From positions 1 to 64,000 of the forward strand of contig JAGOAU010000012.1 in the NCBI GenBank assembly GCA_017983755.1: a stretch of DNA of 64,000 nucleotides. Reading direction: 5' to 3'. The translations under genes and the position numbers were made by a program. Below are positions 1-36,798 of this stretch, piece after piece. Position 1 is the first letter of the stretch, and the number at the start of each line of letters is the position of its first letter. The notes under the pieces are model-generated. The model worked only from the letters and a program-made list of their open reading frames with translations, did not search any database and was not told the DNA's origin. Source of the DNA: Azonexus sp. Lineage in GTDB: Bacteria; Pseudomonadota; Gammaproteobacteria; Burkholderiales; Rhodocyclaceae.

Positions 1-1117
1 TGAGGTCGCTGGCGATGGTCTTGACCAGCGTGGACTTGCCCTGGCCGTTGGCGCCAAGGATGCCGATGCGCTGGCCGGCCATCACTGAGCGGTTGATGCC
101 GCGGACGATGACCGTCGGCGGCGTGCCTTCCGGCGCGTCGTCCGGCGGCGGATAGCCGATGGTGGTATCGACCATCGACAGCATGGGATTAGGCAGGTTT
201 TGTGGCTCCTGGAATTCGAAGGTGAATTCCGCCTCGGCCAGCACCGGCGCGATCTTTTCCATGCGGTCGAGCGCCTTGACCCGGCTCTGCGCCTGCTTGG
301 CCTTGCTCGCCTTGGCCTTGAAGCGGTTGATGAAGGATTGCAGGTGGGCAATCTTCTCGGCCTGGCGGGCGGCGGTGGCCTGCTGTAGCACGATCTGCTC
401 GGCGCGCATGTCCTCGAACTTGCTGTAATTGCCGCCGTAGCGCACTAGCTTGGCGTTGTCGATGTGCAGCGTGACGCCGGTGATGGCATCCAGATACTCG
501 CGGTCGTGGCTGATCATGACCAAGGTGCCCGGGTAACGCTTCAGCCAGGCTTCGAGCCAGACCAGGGCGTCCAGGTCGAGGTGGTTGGTCGGTTCGTCGA
601 GCAGCAGGATGTCGGACGGGCACATCAGCGCGCGCGCCAGTTGCAGGCGCATCCGCCAGCCGCCGGAGAAACTGTTGACAGGGTTGTGCAGTTCCGAGAC
701 CTTGAAACCGAGGCCGAGGATCAGCGACTGGGCGCGCGCTTCGGCGTCGTGTTCGCCAGCGTCGTTGAGCGCCATGTAGGCCTCGGCCATGCGCATGCCG
801 TCGTCGCTGGCTTCGGCGTCGTGCACTTCGTTGCGTGCGGCGAGCAGCTTGGTGTCGCCGTCGATGACGAAGTCGGTGGCCGACTGCTCGGTTTCCGGCA
901 TGTCCTGCGCGACCTGGCCCATATGCCAGATTTTGGGAATCGAATAATCGCCGCCATCCTCGTGCAGCGTGCCGTTGAGCAGCGCGAACAGGGTCGATTT
1001 GCCGGCGCCGTTGCGGCCGACCAGGCCGACCTTCTCGCCGGGGTTGATGGTGACCGAGGCCTTGTCGAGCAGCACTTTCGAGCTGCGGCGCAGGGTGACG
1101 TTCTTGAGGATGATCAT
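1..1117 (-). CDS. ABC-F family ATPase (YheS-like), partial
   Basis: N-terminal 372 residues of a soluble tandem ATPase; the C-terminus lies beyond the left edge. ABC-F proteins act on ribosomes rather than in membranes. The first ATPase domain shows Walker A GRNGAGKST (34-42), signature SGGWRMR (151-157) and Walker B LLLDEPTNHLD (from 171). A charged linker follows, then the second Walker A GANGQGKST close to the edge. No membrane segments are seen. The N-terminal pattern and linker resemble YheS more than EttA or Uup, as recalled from family sequences. The start is the ATG that begins MIILKNVTLRR, the usual ABC-F opening. It is divergent from nothing nearby and reads away from the VF530-type gene. 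Confidence 0.93.
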   Translation of the reverse strand, partial: MIILKNVTLRRSSKVLLDKASVTINPGEKVGLVGRNGAGKSTLFALLNGTLHEDGGDYSIPKIWHMGQVAQDMPETEQSATDFVIDGDTKLLAARNEVHDAEASDDGMRMAEAYMALNDAGEHDAEARAQSLILGLGFKVSELHNPVNSFSGGWRMRLQLARALMCPSDILLLDEPTNHLDLDALVWLEAWLKRYPGTLVMISHDREYLDAITGVTLHIDNAKLVRYGGNYSKFEDMRAEQIVLQQATAARQAEKIAHLQSFINRFKAKASKAKQAQSRVKALDRMEKIAPVLAEAEFTFEFQEPQNLPNPMLSMVDTTIGYPPPDDAPEGTPPTVIVRGINRSVMAGQRIGILGANGQGKSTLVKTIASDL

Positions 1118-1196
1118 GGGGCGGAACTTTCGGGGAAGACGCGCATGATAGCCAGCTACAGGTCGCGCACCTACGGGTATTTGCGGGTTGGGCGAC

Positions 1197-1436
1197 TCAG
1201 GCCGGGCCGCTGTTGTTGCGGCGCACCATATAGACGTACAGCGACTCCACCCGTTCGCGTGCCCACGGCGTGCGGCGCAGGAATTTCAGGCTGGAAGCGA
1301 TGCTCGGGTCGTGGGTGAAGCAGCGGATGTCGATCTGCCGCCCCAGTTCCTCCCAGCCGTAATGGGCATGCAAGGCGGTCAGGATCTTCTCCAGCGTGAT
1401 GCCGTGGAGGGGATTGTTCGGCTGGGGCGCGGTCAT
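1197..1436 (-). CDS. VF530 family DNA-binding-like protein
   Basis: 79-residue protein beginning [12 protein letters not shown] with the family pattern NPLHGxTLExIL...LxxxYGWxxLGxxIxIxCF...DPSxxSSLKFLRKTPWAREKVExLY. The family (DUF2132) is named after a Vibrio fischeri protein of known structure with a SAP-like fold; its function is not established. The longer upstream in-frame extension overlaps dusC on the other strand and is not family-like, so the internal ATG is used. It is divergent from dusC with about 48 bp between the starts. Confidence 0.88.
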
Positions 1437-1484
1437 GGGGCGGATTATAATGCGCGGCTGTTCAGCTGCCGCCCCGGAATTCCC

Positions 1485-2444
1485 ATGTCCCGCATTCTTC
1501 TCGCCCCGATGGAAGGGCTCGCCGACAACCTGCTGCGCGGCGTGCTGACCTCGATTGGCGGCTACGACTGGGCGATCTGCGAATTCATCCGCGTCTCGGG
1601 CAGCGTATTGCCGGTGAAGACCTACGAGCGCATCTGCCCGGAGCTGCTGCACGGCAGCAAGACTGCGGCGGGAACGCCGATGCGCGTGCAGTTGCTTGGC
1701 TCCGACCCGCATTTCATGGCTGAAAACGCCCGCCGGCTAGTGAGCCTGAAGCCGGCGGGTGTCGATCTCAACTTCGGCTGCCCGGCGCCGACGGTGAACC
1801 GCCATCGCGGCGGTGCGGCGCTGCTCGGCGAGCCGGAGTTGCTGAACGAGATCGTCAGCGCCGTGCGTGCGGTGGTTCCGGTCGAAATCCCGTTTACGGC
1901 AAAAATGCGCCTCGGCATCGACGATACTAGCCGCGCCGTCGACTGCGCGCAAGCCCTGGCGGCGGGCGGCATCGACGAACTGATCGTGCATGGCCGGACC
2001 AAGCTCGATGGCTATCGCCCGCCGGCGCGCTGGGCGTGGATCGACAAGGTGCGGGCGGCGGTCGACATCCCGATCATCGCCAACGGCGAGGTGTGGAGGG
2101 TGGACGATTTCGTGCGCTGCCAGCAGGAAACCGGCTGCGCCGACATCATGCTCGGCCGTGGCGCCATCGCCGACCCGCTGCTGGCGCGGCGGGTGCGCGG
2201 CGAGCTAACCGGCGGCTGGGAGGAAGTCGCTCCCGGCGTCGCCGCCTACTGGCAGGGCGTGCGCCGCAAGGTGGTGCCGGAACATGCCGGCGGTCGCCTC
2301 AAGCAATGGTTGGCCCTGCTGCGCCGCAATTATCCGGAAGCCGAAATGCTCTACCAGACCCTGCGGCCGATCAAGACGGCGCACGACATCGACGCGGCGC
2401 TGGTCGCCGCCGGCATCCTCGGCGCACTGCCGCTCGCCGCATGA
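1485..2444 (+). CDS. dusC: tRNA-dihydrouridine(16) synthase DusC
   Basis: 319-residue flavoenzyme that reduces uridine to dihydrouridine in the tRNA D-loop using FMN and NADPH. It opens [15 protein letters not shown], typical of Dus enzymes, and has the active-site motif [15 protein letters not shown] with catalytic Cys99. Downstream are VHGRTK and [10 protein letters not shown], the FMN-phosphate-binding part of the TIM barrel. The C-terminal RIKQWL-like segment ([17 protein letters not shown]) is the DusC-type tRNA-binding helical domain. Length matches the family (about 315). The stop overlaps the start of the following methyltransferase by 4 bp (ATGA), so the two are probably translationally coupled. 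Confidence 0.95.
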
Positions 2445-3106
2445 GCGGAAATTCGCGCTTCATCGTCAGCGCCCAGGAAGGGCCGCATCGCGACCTTGAA
2501 GCACTCGTCCTTCGCCATATAGCGCATCCGTTCAGGAAGCCGATACTCGACTACAACCGGGAAGCCTTCGCTCTTGCACTGGCTGCCCGCGACGCCTGGC
2601 AGCCGGCAGCGCCGCTGATTCTCGACGCCGGTTGCGGCGTCGGCTGGAGCACGCAGCGCCTCGCCGAAATGTACCCCGAGCATTTCGTTTTTGGCGTCGA
2701 TCAGTCGGTCGACCGCATCAGTCGCGGTCGACCGCTCCCGATGCCCAAAAATGCCGTGCTGATCCGCGCCGACCTAGTCGATTTCTGGCGCTTGCTGGCG
2801 GAAAACGACATCCGGCTGGCGCGCCACTACAATCTCTATCCCAACCCGTGGCCGAAAATCGGCCACCTCTCCCGGCGCTGGCATGGTCATGCGGTGTTCC
2901 CGGTGTGGCGCGAACTGGGCGGCGAACTCGAATGCCGCAGCAACTGGCGGATCTACATCGAGGAAATGGCCCAGGCGCTGACCCTGCTGACCGGCCAGCC
3001 AGTCATCGCCGAGCCTTACGAGACCGACGACCCGATGACGCCCTTCGAAAAGAAATATCTCGCCTCCGGCCACGAACTCTGGCGCTGCCGGGTCAGCCTG
3101 CCATGA
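2441..3106 (+). CDS. TrmB-like SAM-dependent methyltransferase
   Basis: 221-residue class I methyltransferase. The SAM-binding loop ILDAGCGVGWST lies at 60-71, with the acidic strand VFGVDQS after it. Residues 131-139 read NLYPNPWPK and are followed by GHLSRRWHG, which corresponds to the FPDPWxKxRHxKRR signature of tRNA (guanine-N7)-methyltransferases, with Asp replaced by Asn. It may therefore be a TrmB paralogue with altered substrate. It sits between dusC and a YkgJ-type gene with 4-bp overlaps on both sides, which supports a role in tRNA modification. Whether the genome holds another, canonical TrmB cannot be seen here. Confidence 0.8.
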   Translation: MSGNSRFIVSAQEGPHRDLEALVLRHIAHPFRKPILDYNREAFALALAARDAWQPAAPLILDAGCGVGWSTQRLAEMYPEHFVFGVDQSVDRISRGRPLPMPKNAVLIRADLVDFWRLLAENDIRLARHYNLYPNPWPKIGHLSRRWHGHAVFPVWRELGGELECRSNWRIYIEEMAQALTLLTGQPVIAEPYETDDPMTPFEKKYLASGHELWRCRVSLP

Positions 3107-3417
3107 ACATCTGCCAGACCTGCGGCGCCTGTTGCGCCAGCTTCCGCGTCGACTTCCACCCCGCCGAACTGGCCGGCTGCGCCTTCGCCTGGGGGGCGGG
3201 TGTGCCGAAGGCAATGACCGTTCCGGTCACGCCTGCCATCGTCCGCATGGCCGGCACCGATGCAACCGAACCGCGCTGCGTGGCGCTGGCCGGAGAAATA
3301 GGAAAAAGCGTGAATTGCACCATCTACGACGGTCGACCGTCACCGTGCCGGGAGTTTGATACCGAGCACGCAGCCTGCAATCGGGCGCGGCAACGGTGCG
3401 GGTTAATGCCCTTGTAG
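3103..3417 (+). CDS. YkgJ family cysteine cluster protein
   Basis: 104-residue protein with the conserved cysteine spacing of the CxxCGxCC family: CQTCGACC at residues 4-11, a central Cys, then NCTIYDGRPSPCREF and further Cys residues. The family (UPF0153) is predicted to bind a metal or Fe-S cluster; no reaction is established. It overlaps the preceding methyltransferase by 4 bp and ends the dusC operon. The 82 bp after it up to the convergent AraC gene hold no gene. Confidence 0.85.
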   Translation: MNICQTCGACCASFRVDFHPAELAGCAFAWGAGVPKAMTVPVTPAIVRMAGTDATEPRCVALAGEIGKSVNCTIYDGRPSPCREFDTEHAACNRARQRCGLMPL

Positions 3418-3499
3418 CCGGGGGGGCAATTGAAATTGATGGGCTGCACCGTGTCCGACGCAGTCTTTGGCCCTGGATACCCCCGTGTTGCCGGTTCCT

Positions 3500-4480
3500 T
3501 TATTTTGCAGACAAAGTGGCTTGATCGACATGCCGCTGGCTGTGGCGTAGCTGCGCTATGTCCCGGCCGGGCGGGGTCCCGAACATGCGGCGATATTCAC
3601 GGCTGAATTGCGACGGGCTTTCGTAGCCGACGTGATGGGCGGCGGAGGCGGCATCGGTGCTGGTGGTTAGCATGAGCCGCCGGGCTTCATGCAGGCGCAT
3701 CTGCTTCTGATATTGCAAGGGCGTCATCGCGGTCAGTGCCTTGAAATGGTGGTGCAGTGACGATTTGCTCATGTTCGACAGGCTGGCCAGACGCTCGATG
3801 CTGATCGGCTGGTCAAGGTTCGTTTTGAGCCAGTCGATGGCGCGGACGATCTGATGGCTGTGGCTGCCGCTGGCAGCAGCCTGGCGCAGGCGCGAGCCGA
3901 GGGCGCCGGTGAGCAGGCGGTAGAGCAGTTCGCGCTCGATGATCGGAGCGAGCACCGGGATGTCGGCCGGCGTATCGAGCAGGCGGGCAAGACGCAGGGC
4001 GGCGCCCTGAATCTCGGCGCTGAGGGTGCCGACGGCAATGCCGCGGTCAACGGCATCCAGGGCACGATTTTCTGGAATGGCGGCGGCCAGTTCGTTGATC
4101 TTCAGCGGATCGATCAGCAGTGCCAGTCCCAGATACGGCTCGCTGGCCGAGGCGCAGATAATGCGCGAGAACATCGGCAGGTCGACCGACGAAATCAGGC
4201 AATGTCGGGCGTCGTAGTCGTAGGTCTCTTCGCCCACCTTGATGCGCTTGGCGCCTTGGACCATCATGGCGAAAACCGAGGCCATGATGGTGCAGGTCGG
4301 CGCGTCGCAATTCGATCCGCGAAACAGCCGCAGGCCGGGGATAGCGGTATCGACGGCCCCGTCATCCGGGCAATGGCGGCGAAGAATCCCGGCGAGTTCC
4401 GCGCGCTGGCGAATCAGCGCGGCGTTTTCCATGGCGATGGAATCATTCGGTCGGGGCGGGGTCAGAACGGCAGTATCCAT
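3500..4480 (-). CDS. AraC family transcriptional regulator
   Basis: 326-residue regulator. The N-terminal half resembles the AraC_N cupin-like domain ([11 protein letters not shown]..., then a region of effector-binding type). The C-terminal 100 residues form two helix-turn-helix units: [20 protein letters not shown] and [20 protein letters not shown], followed by FGTPPG. An in-frame ATG 69 bp upstream gives 349 residues, but that extension is low-complexity and not family-like. The start chosen (MDTAVLTPP) has no strong ribosome site, so the start is uncertain. It is divergent from the molybdenum hydroxylase operon and probably regulates it (inference from position). Confidence 0.88.
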
Positions 4481-28869: not shown

Positions 28870-29853
28870 TCAGGTGCCGTCGCCGGCTGCTTCGGCCCAC
28901 CGCGCCTTGCGCCATTTTTCGCGTTCGCCGTTGCCGCAGAAGGTCCAGGCCACGAAGCGGCTCTGCTTCTGGCCTTGTGCCATCGGGATGATGCGCGAGT
29001 CGACGACCTTGGCTTTCTTCAGCGCGGCTTCGACATGTACGAGGTTTTCGGCATTCGAAATCAGGCTGGTGAACCACAGCACCCGCTTCGGAATGCCGGT
29101 GCTCTGCTCGATCATGTTCTTGACGAAGGCACGTTCGCCGCCGTTGCACCACAGTTCGGTGCCGCCGCCGCCGAAATTGAGGCGGGGCTGGGCGGCACCC
29201 TTTCCGGCGCCCGGCTTGCCGAGCTTGTTCCACTTGCGCTGGCTGACGGCCAGCACGTCGTCCGGCGAGTTGTGGAAGGGCGGGTTGCAGATGCTCAGGT
29301 CGAAGCTTTCGCCGGAGCGCAGGAGGCCGATGAAGATGTTTTCCCAGACCGGTTGGTGACGTAATTCGATTGCTGCGGTCAACGCCGGATTTTTGCTCAA
29401 AATGGCCTGCGCGTTGTCGAGCGCCGCCTGGTCGATATCGACACCGAGAAAGCGCCAGCCGTATTCAGCATGGCCGATCAGCGGATAGACGCAGTTGGCG
29501 CCGACGCCGATGTCGAGCACGCGCACGTTCGGTCCGGTGGGAATGACTTTCCGGTTGCAACTGGCGAGCAGGTCGGCGGAATGGTGGATGTAGTCGGCGC
29601 GCCCGGGAATCGGCGGGCACAGGTAGCCGGCCGGAATCTCCCAACCCCTGACCCCGTAGTGCAGGGCCAGCAGCGCCCGGTTAAGCGCCTTGACCGCCGC
29701 CGGGTTGGCGAAATCGATGCTTGGCGTGCCGGCGGGCGTGGTCACCACGTATTTGACCAAACCCGGTGCAATGGCGGTCAGGGCGGCGAAATCGTAGCCG
29801 GCGGCATTCTTGTTTCGCGGGTGCAGTCCGGGTTTGGGGGCAGGGGCCGTCAT
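28870..29853 (-). CDS. rlmF: 23S rRNA (adenine(1618)-N6)-methyltransferase RlmF
   Basis: 327-residue SAM-dependent methyltransferase that modifies A1618 of 23S rRNA. The start MTAPAPKPGLHPRNKNAAGYDF leads into the family opening LHPRNxHxxxYDF. SAM motif I is VLDIGVGANCVYPLIG and the catalytic motif is ICNPPFHNS; KLGKPGAGKG and LNFGGGGTELWCNGGE follow. An in-frame upstream extension overlapping the neighbouring promoter region was rejected. It is divergent from the AAA ATPase gene, with about 170 bp between. Confidence 0.94.
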   Translation of the reverse strand: MTAPAPKPGLHPRNKNAAGYDFAALTAIAPGLVKYVVTTPAGTPSIDFANPAAVKALNRALLALHYGVRGWEIPAGYLCPPIPGRADYIHHSADLLASCNRKVIPTGPNVRVLDIGVGANCVYPLIGHAEYGWRFLGVDIDQAALDNAQAILSKNPALTAAIELRHQPVWENIFIGLLRSGESFDLSICNPPFHNSPDDVLAVSQRKWNKLGKPGAGKGAAQPRLNFGGGGTELWCNGGERAFVKNMIEQSTGIPKRVLWFTSLISNAENLVHVEAALKKAKVVDSRIIPMAQGQKQSRFVAWTFCGNGEREKWRKARWAEAAGDGT

Positions 29854-30025
29854 TGGTCGGATTCCGGGCGTAGGGGAGGGGGCGGAGTATCCCACGGATT
29901 GATTGTCGCATGACCGACATGCCTGATTTTTGCCAAGTGACTGTTTCAATGCCGCTTTGTCCATTTTTACGCTCGGCATGGAATTCGCTGGATTTCCCAC
30001 ATCCAACATCCCGGGAGTGGCATTC

Positions 30026-31732
30026 ATGAAGCTGCAAATCGAGCGGGCGCACATCGAGGCGATGCTGCAGGTCTTCCCGCGCCTGGTCTTCGTGCGGGAA
30101 CAACTACGCTTCGGCAACCGGGTCGAGCTGTCCTTCGGCCAGCTGAACGACGAGGAGCTCGATTTCCTTGGTGGCCTCTACGCCGCCGGCGGGCCGGAAC
30201 TGCGGGCGCGCGGCGCGCAGATCGGCACGTTGCGGAAGGCCTTGCACGAAGGTGGCAAGCGCTTCGAACCGGAAGAGCTGGAAATGGCGGTGCCGGCCAT
30301 CGCCCGCTACCTGGCCGAAGGCTCGTCGCGCGGATGGGTCTTTTCGGCCGGCATCACCGGCAAGCCGCTGGCCTACGTGGTGACGCGGCTGGATTTCACG
30401 CCGCCCTCGGAAGAGGAAACGGGAAAGATCTTCGTCGAGCTGAAAGCCAACGCCAGGGCGCGGTTGGCGACGGCGACCCTGCGCATCGCCGGGCCGGATA
30501 TCGCCGGCCGGACCATTCCTGAAATCCTGGCGGCCAAGGGCTTCGTCAAGGAAACGCCGGAACTGCTGGCGAGCTATGACGAGGGCGCGGAACGCTACTT
30601 CGACTGGCGGGCGCAGTATGGCGCGCAGTTCTCCGGTTCCGGTGTCGGCTACTTCGCCGAGAACCCGACAGCGACGCACCGCGATACCGATTATTCGCGC
30701 AAGGACCAGATCATCCTGTCGTCGACCGGTAGCCCGGCACGTCTGGTCAACGACGAGAGTATCCTCGGCGAGCGCGTGCTGGCCATCGATGCGACCGGCG
30801 ACATCATGGCCAAGTTCGTCCGCCGCGTCGCTCGCAATTCCCGGCTCTCCGGCAAGGAGGAGGCCGAGGTCGAGGAAACCCAGGCGACCATGCCGAAGGG
30901 GCTGTTCACCGAACTGCCGGTGCATTTCTACATGCTGATGTTCCACCTCGATCTGCACCACTACGTCTGGGTGCATGTCGACGACATGGCACCCTACGCC
31001 TACCAGCCGGAACTCAAGGACAAGCTGGTGCTGCCGCCGGAGCAGACTGACCTGATCGACATCCTGACCGCCGAGATGGACGTCCTGATGGACGACATCG
31101 TCGCCGGCAAGTCTGGCGGCACGACGGTTCTCTGTGCCGGACCGGCCGGGGTCGGCAAGACGCTTACCGCCGAGGTCTATTCGGAAATCATCAAGCGCCC
31201 CCTCTACCGGGTCCATTCCGGTTAACTCGGCCTCAACGTCGCAGCGATGGAGACGGCGCTCAAGGAGGTGCTGACCCGTGCCCAGCGCTGGGGCGCGGTG
31301 ATGCTGATCGACGAGGCTGACGTGTATATCAAGAAGCGCGACGACAACATCACGATGAACGCCGTCGTTGGCGTCTTCCTGCGCGTGCTGGAATACTTCA
31401 ATGGCCTGCTGTTCCTGACCACCAACCGCGTCGACGACATCGACGAAGCCATCGTCTCGCGCTGCATCGCGATGATCCGCTTCCACCCGCCAAGCCGCGA
31501 CGACCGCCGCAAGATCTGGGGCGTCATGGCCGGGCAGTTCGGGCTCGCCATCGAGCCGGCGCTGATGGAACGCCTGCCCGACATCTTCCCGCAGGCCTCC
31601 GGGCGCGACATCAAGGGCCTGGCCAAACTGGTGGCGAAATTCTGCAACCAGAAACAGGTGCCGCCTACGGAAGAAATTTTCCGCCGCTGCTCGATGTTCC
31701 GCGCGCTGGAGCAGGCCGAAGTGACCACCTGA
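30026..31732 (+). pseudogene. AAA family ATPase interrupted by an in-frame TAA
   Basis: A single frame runs over 568 codons but contains TAA at 31223-31225, between Walker A (GPAGVGKTLTAEVYSE, about residue 371) and Walker B (LIDEADVY). The frame continues unchanged after the stop: VHSG-stop-LGLNVAAMETALKEV. TAA is one transition from CAA (Gln), which would fit the AAA consensus here. The N-terminal 360 residues form a helical domain with RGWVFSAGITGKPLAYVVTR, not assigned to a family. The C-terminal half includes sensor 1 FLTTNRVDDI. Without readthrough the 399-residue product lacks Walker B. Sequencing error, recent nonsense mutation or recoding are all possible. Confidence 0.85.
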
Positions 31733-31817
31733 GCGCCGCCGATTTCGGGCCAAAAATGAAGTCGACCGCGCCTGTTGCGGTCGACGGCAAAAAAGGGGCA
31801 AAAATGAAATCGGGCGC
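31733..31817. repeat. Palindromic repeat element between convergent genes
   Basis: The outer ends GCGCCGCCGATTTC and GAAATCGGGCGC are imperfect inverted repeats, and the inner arms GTCGACCGC / GCGGTCGAC (31761-31769 and 31777-31785) are perfect. Its right half, from 31768 to 31816, recurs at about 85 percent identity near 34494. It sits exactly between the broken AAA gene and the convergent DnaQ-like gene, where it may act as a bidirectional terminator. Confidence 0.75.
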
Positions 31818-31821
31818 TAGC

Positions 31822-32361
31822 TCAGTGCAGCGTTTTTTTCTGCAATTCGAGATAGATCAGGCCGATCAAATGGGCGTCGAGTTCAGCGCCGGTCAGGGTT
31901 CGCCTCGGCAGCGGGATTGCGTAATCCTCGATCAGGGCATCGAGATTGTTGGTCTTTTTTGGCCGTAATCGGCGCGCCATCGCCAGGGTATCGATTACGC
32001 CCGCACACAGTTCCCGAGACGGCGGCAATCCGGCGAGCTCGAATTCCATGTCGAGAAAAGCGATGTGGAAGGGCGCGTTGTGCACGATCAACTCGGCACC
32101 GCGCAGGAATTCGGTGAGTTCGGCGGCGATTTCGCCGAAGCTGGAGGCGCCTTCAAGCATTTCCTCGGAGATGCCATGAACGGCCTCAGCGCCTTCGTTG
32201 ATCGGGTGCTTCGGGTTCAGCAAGCTGCGGTAGGCGCGATAGGTGAAACGCCTGTCAACCAACTCGACGGCAGCCAGTTCGATGATGCGGTGTCCCTCGT
32301 CGACGCTGGCGCCGGTTGCTTCAATGTTGAGAATGATTTTGCGCGGGTTTTCAGGACTCAT
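31822..32361 (-). CDS. DnaQ-like 3'-5' exonuclease homologue with degraded active site
   Basis: 179-residue protein closely resembling the E. coli epsilon subunit in length and order. ILNIEATG replaces the canonical LDTETTG, so Asp12 is Asn; Glu14 is kept. HNAPFHIAF replaces HNAxFDxxF, so the motif II Asp is His99. RTLTGAELDAH replaces RTLHGALLDAQ, so the motif III His is Thr157; Asp162 is kept. Three of five metal/catalytic residues are changed, so exonuclease activity is unlikely; a binding role is plausible. It lacks obvious replacement acidic residues nearby. It is the last of three genes with 4-bp overlaps. Confidence 0.9.
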   Translation of the reverse strand: MSPENPRKIILNIEATGASVDEGHRIIELAAVELVDRRFTYRAYRSLLNPKHPINEGAEAVHGISEEMLEGASSFGEIAAELTEFLRGAELIVHNAPFHIAFLDMEFELAGLPPSRELCAGVIDTLAMARRLRPKKTNNLDALIEDYAIPLPRRTLTGAELDAHLIGLIYLELQKKTLH

Positions 32362-33188
32362 GGGGTGTCTCGTTGGGTTGGCGGAGCTAGCTTTGTTATG
32401 GCCGCGATTGCCAGGTCGGCGGCGGGAACGGCGTTCTTGAAGTCATCAAGCGGGTAATCGGTATGGCAAAGACGCATCGGGAGTTCGCCTCGCGTCAGCT
32501 CAGCCAGCCCGCGATTCAGTTCCTCGGTGAGCGCCGCCATGTCGTGAGGCGTGTCTTGATACCAGGATGTCGGCCCGAGCACGACGAGGTCGATCTTTTG
32601 GGCCTGCATGAGTCTCGATGCGTCGGGTTGGTGATTGGGCTTCTCTTGCCGCGAATGCCAGTAGGCCAGCCCATAGCCGAGAATTTCAAACAGGGCGTAG
32701 ATCGGAGAATCACTGCCAACTTTCAATTCGACGAACGAAAAACCGCCCTCCCCTTGGTCGTAAACCAGATCGATGGAGCGACGCCGGTTGCTTCTTGTAC
32801 GCTTGTGTTTTTTGTCCTTCTGATCCCATTTCGCATCAACGCCAGAGGCGGTCGATATTTGCCGAGTCCAGCGCTGACGGCCCAAATCGACGATCTTGTG
32901 TTCGAGTCGCACTTCCTGAGAGTCATTCTGCTGCGAAGGCTCGGTGTGCTTCTCCCGCCAAACCCAGTTCGCGCCGGGCGTCTCTTGCCACCCTTTGGAT
33001 GCCAGGCTGTCAAACAGGCGCTGCACGGCTTGTTGGCCGTCAAATGTTTTCCAGTCGCGCTTCAGCAGGGCGATATTTTCATCCTTAATGAAGCTCCGGC
33101 GTTTGCTGGGCAGCAAGCCCAGCACGTCGCGTACTTGCTTCCAATAGTTCTCGAAAACCGCTGTTGTACTTAATTGTTGCTCGTTCAT
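32358..33188 (-). CDS. PD-(D/E)XK-like protein of unknown function
   Basis: 276-residue soluble protein. The core RRRSIDLVYDQGEGGFSFVELK (Asp140, Glu154, Lys156) fits a PD-(D/E)XK nuclease site, with Glu97 in RLEHKIVDL a possible upstream ligand. A basic stretch KDKKHKRTRSNRRR at about 124-137 precedes it. The ATG at 33188 is chosen because it overlaps the upstream gene's stop by 4 bp (ATGA), as at the downstream junction; an ATG 12 bp upstream is also in frame. No recognised family. Sharing an operon with a beta-CASP nuclease and a DnaQ homologue suggests nucleic acid work (inference). Confidence 0.8.
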   Translation of the reverse strand: MNEQQLSTTAVFENYWKQVRDVLGLLPSKRRSFIKDENIALLKRDWKTFDGQQAVQRLFDSLASKGWQETPGANWVWREKHTEPSQQNDSQEVRLEHKIVDLGRQRWTRQISTASGVDAKWDQKDKKHKRTRSNRRRSIDLVYDQGEGGFSFVELKVGSDSPIYALFEILGYGLAYWHSRQEKPNHQPDASRLMQAQKIDLVVLGPTSWYQDTPHDMAALTEELNRGLAELTRGELPMRLCHTDYPLDDFKNAVPAADLAIAAITKLAPPTQRDTP

Positions 33189-34417
33189 ACCTGCCACCAT
33201 GCTCCGTCGGGTTGGACTATCACGGGTATACCGAAGTCATTGTAGGCCTCGGTGCGGACGGTGTGAATCGGCACCAATTTCCGGGGAGCCATAGCCTGTG
33301 CAAAGCGGCGCAAGCCGGTGCTATCGGCATGGCCGGAGGTGTGGATCAGGCGAGTCGGTATCCCGTGCGCCGCAAGCCAGGCACCCATTGGCGCAAAGTC
33401 GTCGCGCTGCATGTAGCCCGGCCATTGCGAATAGGTGAACGAGGCGCCCGCGAGGCAGCCTGCTTTTTCCAGATCGGGGCGCCAGAGATCGCGGAACAAC
33501 AGCGCGAATTTTTCTGGATGGGCGGCAACGTCGCGCTTGAGGAACAGGCGACGTCGTGCGTGACGATTCAGTTGTCCGAACCAGGCGTTGCGCCTGATTT
33601 GAATCCGCTGGCGCAAGGGTACGCAGAGGGCGACGTGCGGCCAGTGCGATTGGGGGAGCCTGGGGTTTTCTGTCGCTTCCAGAATGATGGCGGTGTAGAG
33701 GTCGATTAGCAGCGTTCGCCCGGCTTTTCGGCAAGCCCGATAGAGCGTGACCATGCGGTCTATGTTTTGGGCCGAGGTCTGGATCAGCGCCAGGCCAGAG
33801 GTTTCCCGAAAGCTTGCGCAAAACTCGGCCTCAAGTTCGTCTTCGGTTTGCGGCCCGCGTTCGCTTGGCGGGCGCCCCAAGGTCGTGCCCTCCATCAGCA
33901 AAGCATCGATTGCTGCTGGGGGTTGGGAAATGAGCCGTTCCATCAGGGCGGATTTGCGACCGTGCAGCCGGAAATCGCCACTGTAAAACAGGCGTTTTCC
34001 TTCCGCCTCAATCAATAGCGCGTAGGCGTCGTAGGCTGAGTGATCGACCAGATAGGGGGTGATGGTGAACGGCCCGATGGTGAGCGGGCATCGGTCGACC
34101 AAATCCTGTCCGGCGAGCGTCGGTAGCGTCTGCCGCATGAAGGGGGCAGCTGCGAGAAGAATCCGCCGCGCGGCAGCCCCCATGACGATGGGCGTGGACG
34201 GCAGCCTGGGGAGCAGGCCGTAATGATCCAGGTGCGGGTGGGAAATGACGACGGCCAGCAACGAGTCGAAATCGAGTTGAGGCAGTGGTGGATAATTACT
34301 TTCACCGAGCCCATTTAACGGCAAACCGGCATCGATCAGTATGCGTTTTCCGGCAGCAGCAATTTCGATGCACGAGCCGCCAATTTCGTGCGATCCACGA
34401 TGAATCCGAACGTCCAT
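33185..34417 (-). CDS. MBL-fold beta-CASP ribonuclease-like protein (RNase J/CPSF type)
   Basis: 410-residue protein. It opens MDVRIHRGSHEIGGSCIEI with the family pattern GSxxEIGGSC, followed by ILIDAG. The metal motif is SHPHLDHYG (HxHxDH). Later come LVDHSAYDAYALLIE, YSGDFRLHG, the beta-CASP segment LLMEGTTLGR and the C-terminal HTSGHADSTGLRRF, where RNase J-like enzymes have their last His ligands. An in-frame extension of 211 codons upstream runs across the repeat and the TPR gene and is not real. It is the first gene of the operon. It is shorter than RNase J (about 550), lacking the C-terminal domain. Confidence 0.88.
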   Translation of the reverse strand: MDVRIHRGSHEIGGSCIEIAAAGKRILIDAGLPLNGLGESNYPPLPQLDFDSLLAVVISHPHLDHYGLLPRLPSTPIVMGAAARRILLAAAPFMRQTLPTLAGQDLVDRCPLTIGPFTITPYLVDHSAYDAYALLIEAEGKRLFYSGDFRLHGRKSALMERLISQPPAAIDALLMEGTTLGRPPSERGPQTEDELEAEFCASFRETSGLALIQTSAQNIDRMVTLYRACRKAGRTLLIDLYTAIILEATENPRLPQSHWPHVALCVPLRQRIQIRRNAWFGQLNRHARRRLFLKRDVAAHPEKFALLFRDLWRPDLEKAGCLAGASFTYSQWPGYMQRDDFAPMGAWLAAHGIPTRLIHTSGHADSTGLRRFAQAMAPRKLVPIHTVRTEAYNDFGIPVIVQPDGAWWQV

Positions 34418-34493
34418 GATTGCCGTTGCCTGCGCTTGGGAAAGCCATATTGGATCATGGAATATCGGGCGTCGCGCATTTGCTCGATGTTCT

Positions 34494-34543
34494 GCGCCTG
34501 TTGCGGTCGACAGCCAAAAAAGGCCAAAAATGAAGTCAGGCGG
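34494..34543 (+). repeat. Second copy of the repeat flanking the three-gene operon
   Basis: Begins GCGCCTGTTGCGGTCGAC and continues with AAAAAAGG...CAAAAATGAAGTC. It matches 31768-31816 in the same orientation on the plus strand, with a few mismatches and a one-base shift. It lies between the TPR gene and the beta-CASP gene, and its end supplies the stop codon (34536-34538) of the TPR gene. Confidence 0.8.
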
Positions 34544-34994
34544 CCAAGCGCGTTTGCTCCAGCAGGGCCACCACGACCGAACCGCCGACGGCGTCGTCGC
34601 GGTCGAGGGCGACGACGCGGCAGATGGCGTCTTCGGCCTTGCCTGGTTGTCCGCTGCGCAGGTGAATGAATGCCAGGCCCTTGAGCGCGGCGAGGGCGCT
34701 GCCCGGCGCTTCCCGCCACAGCAGCCAGTTGTCCGGAAGGCCCGCGTCGCGCGCCGCCGCGGCGACCCAGTCCCGGGCGGCGGCCAGCGCCTTGTCGAAT
34801 TGCCGACAGCGGTTGTAGTGTTTGACCATGCAGCGATGCGCCGGCAGCGCGTCCGGGGCCAGTGCCAGGGCAGCGAGAAAGTGGCGTTCGGCCAGCGCGC
34901 GATCGGTGAAATGCGCGGCCACGCCTTGCTGCAGCAGTTGATCCACCGCGGGCGGGAGGTGGCCGAAATCGAGATTGTCGTTATCGTCGAGCAT
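34536..34994 (-). CDS. TPR-like protein
   Basis: 152-residue helical protein. Helix-turn-helix pairs with the TPR spacing are visible in ALAERHFLAALALAPDALPAH and ALAALKGLAFIHLRSGQPGKAE. No signal peptide or catalytic motif is seen. The frame ends inside the flanking repeat, so its C-terminus (ALLEQTRLAA) may be newly made. It shares orientation with the nuclease operon but is separated from it by the repeat and about 120 bp. It is divergent from the heme-monooxygenase-like gene. Confidence 0.7.
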   Translation of the reverse strand: MLDDNDNLDFGHLPPAVDQLLQQGVAAHFTDRALAERHFLAALALAPDALPAHRCMVKHYNRCRQFDKALAAARDWVAAAARDAGLPDNWLLWREAPGSALAALKGLAFIHLRSGQPGKAEDAICRVVALDRDDAVGGSVVVALLEQTRLAA

Positions 34995-35070
34995 GTTGTT
35001 TCACGAACGTATCGGGTGGAAGATTCACCCTTCAAGCAACAAGCGTGCACGTCATTTTTCAGGAGATTCC

Positions 35071-35376
35071 ATGTTTCTCGCCATGAACCGTTTTCGCATT
35101 GCGCCGGGCAAGGAGGACGATTTCGTTGCCCACTGGCGCAATCGCAACAGCTACCTGGCCGAGGTGCTGGGCTTCGTCAGCTTCAACCTGCTGCGCGGCG
35201 ACAGCAACGACGAACGAACCTTGTTCGCGTCGCATACGGTGTGGGAATCCGAGCAGGCTTTCGCCGACTGGACGCAGTCGGACGCTTTCCGCAAGGCGCA
35301 CATGGCGGCCGGCCAGTCGCCGCGCGATTTCTACCTCGGGCCGCCGCAGCTCGAACTGTTCGAAGCGGTGCTGTAG
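35071..35376 (+). CDS. Antibiotic biosynthesis monooxygenase/heme-degrading oxygenase-like protein
   Basis: 101-residue ferredoxin-like ABM domain. It opens MFLAMNRFRIAPGKEDDFVAHWRNR and continues EVLGFVSFNLLRGD, then TLFASHTVWESEQAFADWTQSDAFRKAH, the pattern of the IsdG/HmoA-like heme oxygenase group, where the His near the middle can ligate heme. The ATG at this position has AGGAG six bases upstream; an in-frame upstream start would add a non-family segment. It stands alone, so the substrate is not certain. Confidence 0.85.
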   Translation: MFLAMNRFRIAPGKEDDFVAHWRNRNSYLAEVLGFVSFNLLRGDSNDERTLFASHTVWESEQAFADWTQSDAFRKAHMAAGQSPRDFYLGPPQLELFEAVL

Positions 35377-35541
35377 GGCGAACCTTCGCACCGTCGGCGA
35401 ATCCAACTTGCAAGCGAAACACGCGGGCCGGCATTTATCGCGGCGTCGGCAAGCAGGAAGGGTTACATTGGCGTAAAATCCCGCGCTCAGCCACGCTCGC
35501 GTAACCGGAGAAGGGCTCGGCTGCTTTTCTTGAGGATGACG

Positions 35542-36798
35542 ATGAAGCGCGTGGACGATTTCCGTTTGCAGTTGGGCAAGCATGAACTGGTGCCGATCAT
35601 GATCGGTGGCATGGGCGTCGATATTTCGACCGCCGATCTGGCGCTGGAGGCGGCCCGCCTCGGTGGCGTCGGCCACATTTCCGACGCCATGATCAATACC
35701 GTCGCCGACCGCCGCTACGACACCAAGCAGGTCAAGGAAAAGCTCGCGCTCTACAAGTACAACGTTCTCAACGAGGACAAGTCGTCGGTCAAGTTCGACA
35801 TCGGCCGGCTGGTCGAGGCGACCCGCCTGCACGTCGAGGCGACGATGCGACGCAAGCAGGGTTCGGGGCTGATCCTGATCAACTGCATGGAAAAGCTGAC
35901 GATGAATGCGCCGAAGGAAACCCTTCGCGCGCGCATGAGCGCTGCGCTGGATTCCGGGATCGACGGCATCACTTTGGCTGCCGGCCTGCACCTCGGTTCG
36001 TTCGCGCTGATCGAGGATCACCCGCGTTTTCGCGATGCCAAGCTGGGCATCATCGTCTCGTCGGTGCGCGCCCTCCAGCTCTTCCTGAAAAAGAGCAGCC
36101 GCACCAATCGCCTGCCCGATTACATCGTCGTCGAAGGTCCGCTGGCGGGCGGCCATCTCGGCTTCGGCCTAGACTGGGCCAAGTACGATCTGGCGACCAT
36201 CGTCGCCGAGGTCATCGCCTATCTCAAGGAAGCGCAACTGGATATCCCGGTGATTCCGGCCGGCGGCATCTTCACGGGCAGCGATGCGGCGGCATTCCTG
36301 GAAAACGGCGCCGCAGCCGTCCAGGTGGCGACGCGCTTCACCGTGACCGAGGAATGCGGCCTGCCGGCCGACGTGAAGCAGGAGTATTTCAAGGCCGATG
36401 AGGAAGACATCGTGGTCAACGAAATCTCGCCGACCGGTTACCCGATGCGCATGATCAAATCGAGCCCGGGCATAGGCGACGGCATCCGTCCCAACTGCGA
36501 GGCTTATGGCTATCTGCTGGATGCCAGCGGCAAGTGCTCATACGTGACCTCCTACAACCGCGAAGTGGCGGCGCATCCGGGGGCGCGCAAGGTACAGGTA
36601 TGGGACAAGACCTGTCTATGCACCCACATGCGCAACTTCGACATCTGGACTTGCGGTCAACTGACCTATCGCTTGAAGGACACGACTTACCGACTGGCCG
36701 ACGGCAGCTACCAGATGCTCTCTGCCGAACATGTCTTCCACGACTATCAGTTCAGCACCGACAACAAGGTGGCACTGCCGGTAGCAGCCGCTGTTTAA
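35542..36798 (+). CDS. Nitronate monooxygenase (2-nitropropane dioxygenase-like)
   Basis: 418-residue FMN-dependent TIM-barrel enzyme. Family segments are ELVPIMIGGMGVDIST, VVEGPLAGGHLGFG (substrate and FMN site) and VIPAGGIFTGSDAAAFLENGAAAVQVATRF (FMN phosphate). A Cys-rich tail (CEAYGYLLDASGKC, KTCLCTHM, TCGQL) is an addition compared with the basic 320-360-residue family. It either oxidises alkyl nitronates or acts as a FabK-like reductase. Two ATGs 6 bp apart are possible; the second has the better distance from GAGG. An AT-rich stretch near 35465-35480 (TTACAT, TAAAAT) may hold the promoter. Confidence 0.85.
   Translation: MKRVDDFRLQLGKHELVPIMIGGMGVDISTADLALEAARLGGVGHISDAMINTVADRRYDTKQVKEKLALYKYNVLNEDKSSVKFDIGRLVEATRLHVEATMRRKQGSGLILINCMEKLTMNAPKETLRARMSAALDSGIDGITLAAGLHLGSFALIEDHPRFRDAKLGIIVSSVRALQLFLKKSSRTNRLPDYIVVEGPLAGGHLGFGLDWAKYDLATIVAEVIAYLKEAQLDIPVIPAGGIFTGSDAAAFLENGAAAVQVATRFTVTEECGLPADVKQEYFKADEEDIVVNEISPTGYPMRMIKSSPGIGDGIRPNCEAYGYLLDASGKCSYVTSYNREVAAHPGARKVQVWDKTCLCTHMRNFDIWTCGQLTYRLKDTTYRLADGSYQMLSAEHVFHDYQFSTDNKVALPVAAAV

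Follow-up and report, generated by a model that had tools for sequence, protein, structure and literature searches.

A repeat-bounded three-gene cassette in Azonexus sp. encoding a predicted beta-CASP nuclease, a PD-(D/E)XK-like protein and an epsilon-like pseudo-exonuclease

Organization of the cassette and its empty site

The stretch of DNA analysed here, referred to as the window, comprises 64,000 nucleotides of Azonexus sp. (assembly GCA_017983755.1, contig JAGOAU010000012.1, positions 1 to 64,000) and contains a cassette of three minus-strand genes placed between two copies of a direct repeat. Gene 1 (33185..34417) encodes P0001 (410 residues), a predicted beta-CASP metallo-beta-lactamase (MBL) nuclease that keeps the metal and beta-CASP residues as well as an RMMBL tail. 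Gene 2 (32358..33188) encodes P0002, a predicted PD-(D/E)XK-like nuclease, and gene 3 (31822..32361) encodes P0003 (179 residues), a DnaQ/Pol III epsilon exonuclease domain that appears to be a pseudo-exonuclease. The junctions between genes 1 and 2 and between genes 2 and 3 are both 4-bp ATGA overlaps, in agreement with the three-gene operon described in an earlier, sequence-only reading of the window. The open reading frames (ORFs) were called with a simple greedy script whose starts often lie too far upstream: gene 2 was called from 33200 (280 residues) and has 276 residues when read from the ATG at 33188, within the ATGA overlap. The three ORFs fill 31822-34417, and no recombinase or transposase was found between the repeats, none of these ORFs matching a recombinase family.

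The repeats of about 49 bp that the same reading had placed at both ends, in the same direction, are located at 31768..31816 and 34494..34542 (both on the plus strand) and are 88% identical. Their length, their identity and pattern controls of 0 suggest that the pair is beyond chance. The cassette that they bound is a real insertion or deletion, because the closest relative compared (G020) carries the corresponding empty site with one repeat. The window positions 28910-31816 and 34492-36781 align to positions 8049-5114 and 5163-2854 of the G020 stretch L124, where the two aligned blocks join in a single repeat and the cassette is absent. The TPR gene that adjoins the cassette is present in 9 of 60 genomes, this one counted, and the surrounding stretches were compared from the other eight; no blastn match to the cassette was obtained in any of these eight stretches. 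The matches to the AAA gene on the other side and to the TPR gene are spaced by 73 bp in G016, 216 bp in G012, 618 bp in G025 and 2.9 kb, with other content, in G027, and the AAA gene failed to align in the stretches taken from G005, G033 and G026. A gain of the cassette in this lineage is favoured; alternatively, G020 may have lost it by recombination between the repeats.

The repeats belong to a dispersed family. The sequence-only reading had named repeats at many unrelated places as a finding that would speak against a cassette, and such places do occur throughout the genome; it is the empty site that keeps the cassette reading alive. The 93-bp left region is matched at least 40 times in the source genome (G000, an incomplete assembly of 2.5 Mb, 74% complete), a number that includes the two copies in the window and comes from scoring 40 of 276 first-look candidates; the matches span 22 to 51 bp, the window's own match excepted. 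For a degenerate repeat pattern, 9 of 37 genomes contain matches, among them G000 with 37, G020 with 60 and G022 with 65; the reversed control gave 0. The core 12-mer GTTGCGGTCRAC is counted 349 times in G000, 479 in G020, 322 in G022 and 137 in G017, against 5, 1, 2 and 4 for the control. Given these dispersed copies, the presence of the repeat is no general mark of a cassette, and its use as a cassette-specific boundary was rejected. As the empty site indicates, genes can be gained or lost between copies of a dispersed repeat in this lineage.

Several features of the repeat family were observed in passing. This lineage-specific dispersed repeat has a palindromic core (TTGCGGTCGACCGCAA in some copies), which was counted in four genomes and occurs there on both strands; 14 of 23 same-genus genomes lack any match to the longer pattern. 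Most copies (20 of 23) lie inside a stop-to-stop frame 150 codons or longer, a finding of little weight in DNA rich in guanine and cytosine (GC). Elsewhere in G000, at positions 716-3942 of the stretch L111 (G000:C9:40000-47700), the content between two same-direction repeats differs from that of the G020 stretch L156, with an HNH-like ORF recognized by eye in G000 and other genes in G020. This pair was rejected as a second clean cassette, since homology extends about 300 bp beyond the left repeat.

Predicted identities of genes 1 and 3

Gene 1 is predicted to be a beta-CASP nuclease. In NCBIfam and PDB, P0001 matches aCPSF1, Cas14, RNase J and CPSF73; its NCBIfam scores fall far short of the curated cut-offs (47 bits where 580 are required, and 32 where 400 are), and Pfam assigns Lactamase_B_2 (E 2.2e-14) and RMMBL (E 4.3e-6; PF07521, 27.1 bits with a cut-off of 21.6). 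The residues H60, H62, D64, H65, H126, D148, E176, H363 and H385 are invariant in 9 of 9 aligned sequences; we take them to be the HxHxDH motif with the further metal ligands and the acidic, His and His motifs of beta-CASP enzymes. The metal-binding motifs, the RMMBL tail and the best sequence matches are thus shared with the beta-CASP ribonucleases (RNase J, aCPSF1/CPSF73 and TTHA0252), from which gene 1 differs in its low scores, in a patchy distribution and in adjoining PD-(D/E)XK genes.

In gene 3, residues 4-173 align to the exonuclease domain of Escherichia coli Pol III epsilon (E 2.6e-36), and the protein, unlike DnaQ, ends at this domain. The catalytic positions are occupied by N12, E14, H99, T157 and D162, so that NEHTD replaces the DEDHD found in all 12 DnaQ proteins compared, the host's included. 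With three of the five catalytic residues changed, gene 3 is predicted to be a catalytically dead pseudo-exonuclease. P0003 has 46% identity to the host's DnaQ and 53% to the best other DnaQ, too little for a recent duplicate of the host gene. It also matches the DEDDh and PDC-S48 models of PADLOC-DB. The identities that the sequence-only reading had given to the three genes were upheld by family matches, conserved motifs and, for gene 3, the NEHTD residues.

DEDDh genes are also placed near other clustered gene 1 loci, namely L062 (429 residues, with a BRCT domain) and L008. At positions 5980-9700 of L062, a fusion of gene 1 with a PD-(D/E)XK domain precedes this BRCT-bearing DEDDh enzyme, in which the catalytic residues appear intact by eye. 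It is possible, from its sequence, that the L062 enzyme is an active counterpart of gene 3.

Gene 2 and the PD-(D/E)XK partners of gene 1 relatives

Relatives of gene 1 are encoded in 394 of 429 pattern-matched stretches of a species-genome collection, and the best 80 of the 394 were kept for locus analysis. These 80 extend from Proteobacteria (Rhodocyclales, 60%) to Chloroflexi and one Bathyarchaeon. Plasmids contributed 20 records, 11 of them with at least 80% coverage; the full-length relatives reach 36-41% on Alpha- and Betaproteobacterial plasmids and 30% on a Prevotella plasmid. The distribution is patchy, with gene 1 at full length in 3 of 36 same-genus genomes, this one counted, and short weak matches in 2 of 24 genomes of other families. 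Gene 1 loci of two same-genus genomes have the same scores as those of Dechloromonas sp. SB18 and MAG CTSoil_120, which suggests Dechloromonas/Azonexus as the genus. No match to P0001 was found in the phages searched.

These relatives recurrently adjoin a PD-(D/E)XK gene. The motif was detected at 43 of 72 gene 1 loci versus 4 of 195 control genes (Fisher p 1e-25), in 39 cases in a same-strand neighbour and in 4 fused to the C-terminus of gene 1. The 72 loci are the 80 minus L026, L032, L041, L044, L069, L079, L080 and L083, which contain no called ORF with at least 120 bits to gene 1, and the count omits some partners at loci where an over-long called ORF overlaps gene 1. A wider count gives 50 of 84 loci versus 4 of 221 control genes, where the 84 include plasmid loci, near-duplicates (L091/L017 and L092/L015) and the window itself twice. 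Neighbour genes were grouped by single-linkage clustering. All 25 sequences of the main partner family carry E182 and K184, and at least 90% carry D165. Its structural model, with a predicted local distance difference test (pLDDT) score of 84.8, has PD-(D/E)XK nucleases as best structural neighbours, and the immune enzymes SduA of Shedu, Can2, McrC, HamA and Card1 are among them; the matches have Z under 8 and none has a Foldseek E of 0.001 or below. This likeness concerns the main partner family of the other operons and not P0002; the partner family differs from these immune enzymes in its modest Z, and its members were gathered here solely for lying next to beta-CASP genes.

P0002 is rare, being present in 1 of 100 relatives, 2 of 399 genomes of the order and 1 of 369 genomes of the class (self counted, the sets overlapping). 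The sole other genome with a homologue among those searched is G432, in which a gene 1 homologue (50% identity over 414 residues) is followed by the P0002 homologue (36% over 185 residues). No DnaQ-like ORF is present in the 1.26 kb from this homologue to the contig end, and no relatives of P0002 were found on plasmids, in the IMG/VR pattern scan or in the genome-contig pattern scan. The two proteins conserve IDLV, F(V/I)ELK and SD(T/S)P(L/I)YA..EIL.YG. A profile built from both matches the c21/fusion PD-(D/E)XK core (E 8e-7, 91.6%) and c39 (E 2e-5, 75.9%), with no match to c0, c12, c13, c14 or c27. P0002 alone matches the PD-(D/E)XK core at E 1e-4, a value reached by 0 of 60 shuffles, for a core segment chosen after inspection of the motif, and it has no similarity by profile to the main partner family. 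Its predicted structure (pLDDT 33) was not used. Gene 2 is predicted to be a PD-(D/E)XK-like nuclease, and it can be placed with the PD-(D/E)XK partners because its G432 homologue follows a gene 1 homologue and because of the shared core profile. All three genes together were found in no other genome. The expectation that the three genes would recur together thus holds in part: the exact trio was not found elsewhere, and on the other side G432 shows the pair of genes 1 and 2 with no gene 3 beside it, and pairs of gene 1 with PD-(D/E)XK genes are widespread.

Further genes adjoin the related operons. Metallophosphoesterase genes come next in L004, in L008 and in the loci of cluster c18 (L075, L081 and L082), as assigned by Pfam on L004, L008 and L075. 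A PcfJ-like gene lies directly downstream in 7 loci (one member annotated), a cluster of WYL regulators is present at 12 of 84 loci, upstream on the opposite strand in 10 (one member checked with Pfam), and PP2C-like genes form a cluster of 4 loci (one member annotated). A family of small proteins with conserved GIFWxV, PRGR and DxHYR lies beside gene 1 homologues at 6 loci and immediately upstream of them at 3 of these (for example L002 5516-5992, L003 5558-5953, L009 5543-5986 and L007 7256-7630); the members from L009 and L070 have no Pfam match. Some PD-(D/E)XK partners weakly match the PADLOC candidate models PDC-S26, PDC-S11 and PDC-S02. In a comparison for defence-gene enrichment, 110 flank genes and 110 random same-genus genes matched 87 and 160 PADLOC families, respectively; this comparison counts families and not genes, and the random control contained Dpd and type I restriction genes.

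Candidate function of the cassette

A nucleic-acid function of the trio is well supported by the predicted families of its members. The two-nuclease pair looks like an immune module, undescribed as far as the open-access literature and PADLOC-DB 2.0.0 show. Genes 1 and 2 each match 0 families of PADLOC-DB 2.0.0 at E up to 0.1, in agreement with the sequence-only reading, whose author knew of no described system so composed. No beta-CASP/PD-(D/E)XK defence module appears among the matches listed in a search of the titles and abstract starts of open-access PMC articles, with preprints and most subscription journals outside its scope.

Beta-CASP enzymes work in the maturation and decay of RNA and in DNA repair. 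In type VII CRISPR-Cas, one of them, Cas14, is an immune effector (PMC10910872). Gene 1 resembles Cas14 in being a predicted beta-CASP nuclease with a weak match to it, whereas its score is 34.5 bits against a curated 800 and its partner is a PD-(D/E)XK gene, not Cas5 or Cas7. The locus does not qualify as type VII on the Cas14 score or on genes 2 and 3, which are other proteins, and no search for a CRISPR array was made. A further comparison is offered by the Hachiman/AVAST and canu loci, for which PMC12799240 describes pairs of an MBL-type nuclease and a protease in immune loci. The likeness consists of an MBL-superfamily nuclease recurrently found with a changing partner. On the other hand, the nucleases described there are similar to those of DNA uptake and depend on the protease for activation, while the pair found here combines beta-CASP and PD-(D/E)XK proteins.

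The exchangeable PD-(D/E)XK partners, the patchy distribution across phyla, the presence on plasmids, the WYL regulators and the immune-nuclease-like fold of the main partner family argue for a defence module. The cassette is probably a horizontally moving, immune-like module of two predicted nucleases with a dead-epsilon accessory; from these data we infer the defence role, the formation of a complex, the substrates and the role of gene 3. The core of the module would be the conserved beta-CASP gene 1 working with the PD-(D/E)XK gene 2. Across bacteria, the beta-CASP protein stays alike, the PD-(D/E)XK partner is drawn from several families with little relation to one another, and an additional gene, such as a metallophosphoesterase, a DEDDh exonuclease or a PcfJ-like protein, is swapped in and out. 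Both nucleases may act as a single complex: its PD-(D/E)XK subunit would bind and cut invading DNA, and its beta-CASP subunit would degrade or trim transcripts or ends. The dead epsilon protein of gene 3 would, most plausibly, attach to 3' ends or replication intermediates and leave them uncut, thereby guiding or holding back the two nucleases; this binding is the least supported step. The particular division of labour among genes 1 to 3 given here is doubtful. Somewhat less doubtful, and still tentative, is the broader proposal of a widespread unnamed immune family that combines a beta-CASP protein, an interchangeable PD-(D/E)XK partner and a swappable gene, in which the dead proofreading domain of this cassette would serve as sensor or bait for phage replication ends. 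If the immune-like reading is true, it would add a CRISPR-independent immune use of a beta-CASP enzyme and a case of partner exchange, and the dead epsilon domain would provide a specific hypothesis for a module that senses replication.

The same enzymes might instead serve the host. An operon for RNA processing, or for RNA or DNA repair, would have gene 1 act in RNA maturation as RNase J or CPSF73 do, with genes 2 and 3 as accessory end-binders, and would be horizontally acquired and host-serving. The best matches of gene 1 (aCPSF1, RNase J and CPSF73) and its RMMBL tail are in line with such a role, and the metallophosphoesterases and the DEDDh exonuclease with BRCT of the related operons fit end processing. 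However, the presence in 3 of 36 same-genus genomes, the exchange of partners, the fusions and the immune-nuclease-like fold of the main partner family fit conflict systems better, and we regard this alternative as unlikely.

Still less probable is that the genes are cargo of a mobile element, for example a plasmid-borne module for maintenance or competition, which recombination between dispersed repeats has captured and whose function is incidental to its position. The dispersal of the repeat, a copy of which was also seen beside genes that resemble sulfate assimilation by eye, and the plasmid relatives of gene 1 would agree with this origin, which nevertheless leaves the conservation of the nuclease pair unexplained and finds no recombinase or transposase between the repeats. 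A decaying remnant, with the dead gene 3 (three of five catalytic residues lost) and the in-frame stop of the AAA neighbour as marks of a functionless region, is likewise improbable, given three open cassette ORFs with tight ATGA overlaps, the family-invariant positions retained in gene 1, the gene 2 motif kept against a 36% homologue and a gene 3 that can be aligned over residues 4-173.

Outside the cassette, the left flank carries an AAA ATPase gene (30026..31732, plus strand) and the right flank a TPR-protein gene (34536..34994, minus strand), whose stop codon lies in the right repeat. Both neighbours had been described as disturbed in the sequence-only reading. The in-frame stop of the AAA gene (31223-31225) is real, and the gene reads through at this place in all five aligned relatives (G020, G012, G016, G027 and G025, the last with only the later part of the gene in the stretch). 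This stop lies about 0.5 kb from the cassette, nothing seen connects the two, and it may mark a pseudogene or a sequencing error. The TPR gene, on the contrary, is not cut, because its stop also sits in the repeat in G020, where the cassette is absent. That the state of the neighbours points to an insertion is not supported. The GC content is 58.6% in the cassette versus 63.4% and 62.6% in the flanks, and it was rejected as a mark of foreign origin since 14 of 123 segments of the same size are equally low. At the 3' side of the operon, a terminator-like hairpin on the minus strand (31761..31785) is built from the left repeat together with adjoining sequence and has a 9-bp stem, a T-rich tail and a z of -2.9, in a region that contains 7 terminator-like sites against 3.7 expected.

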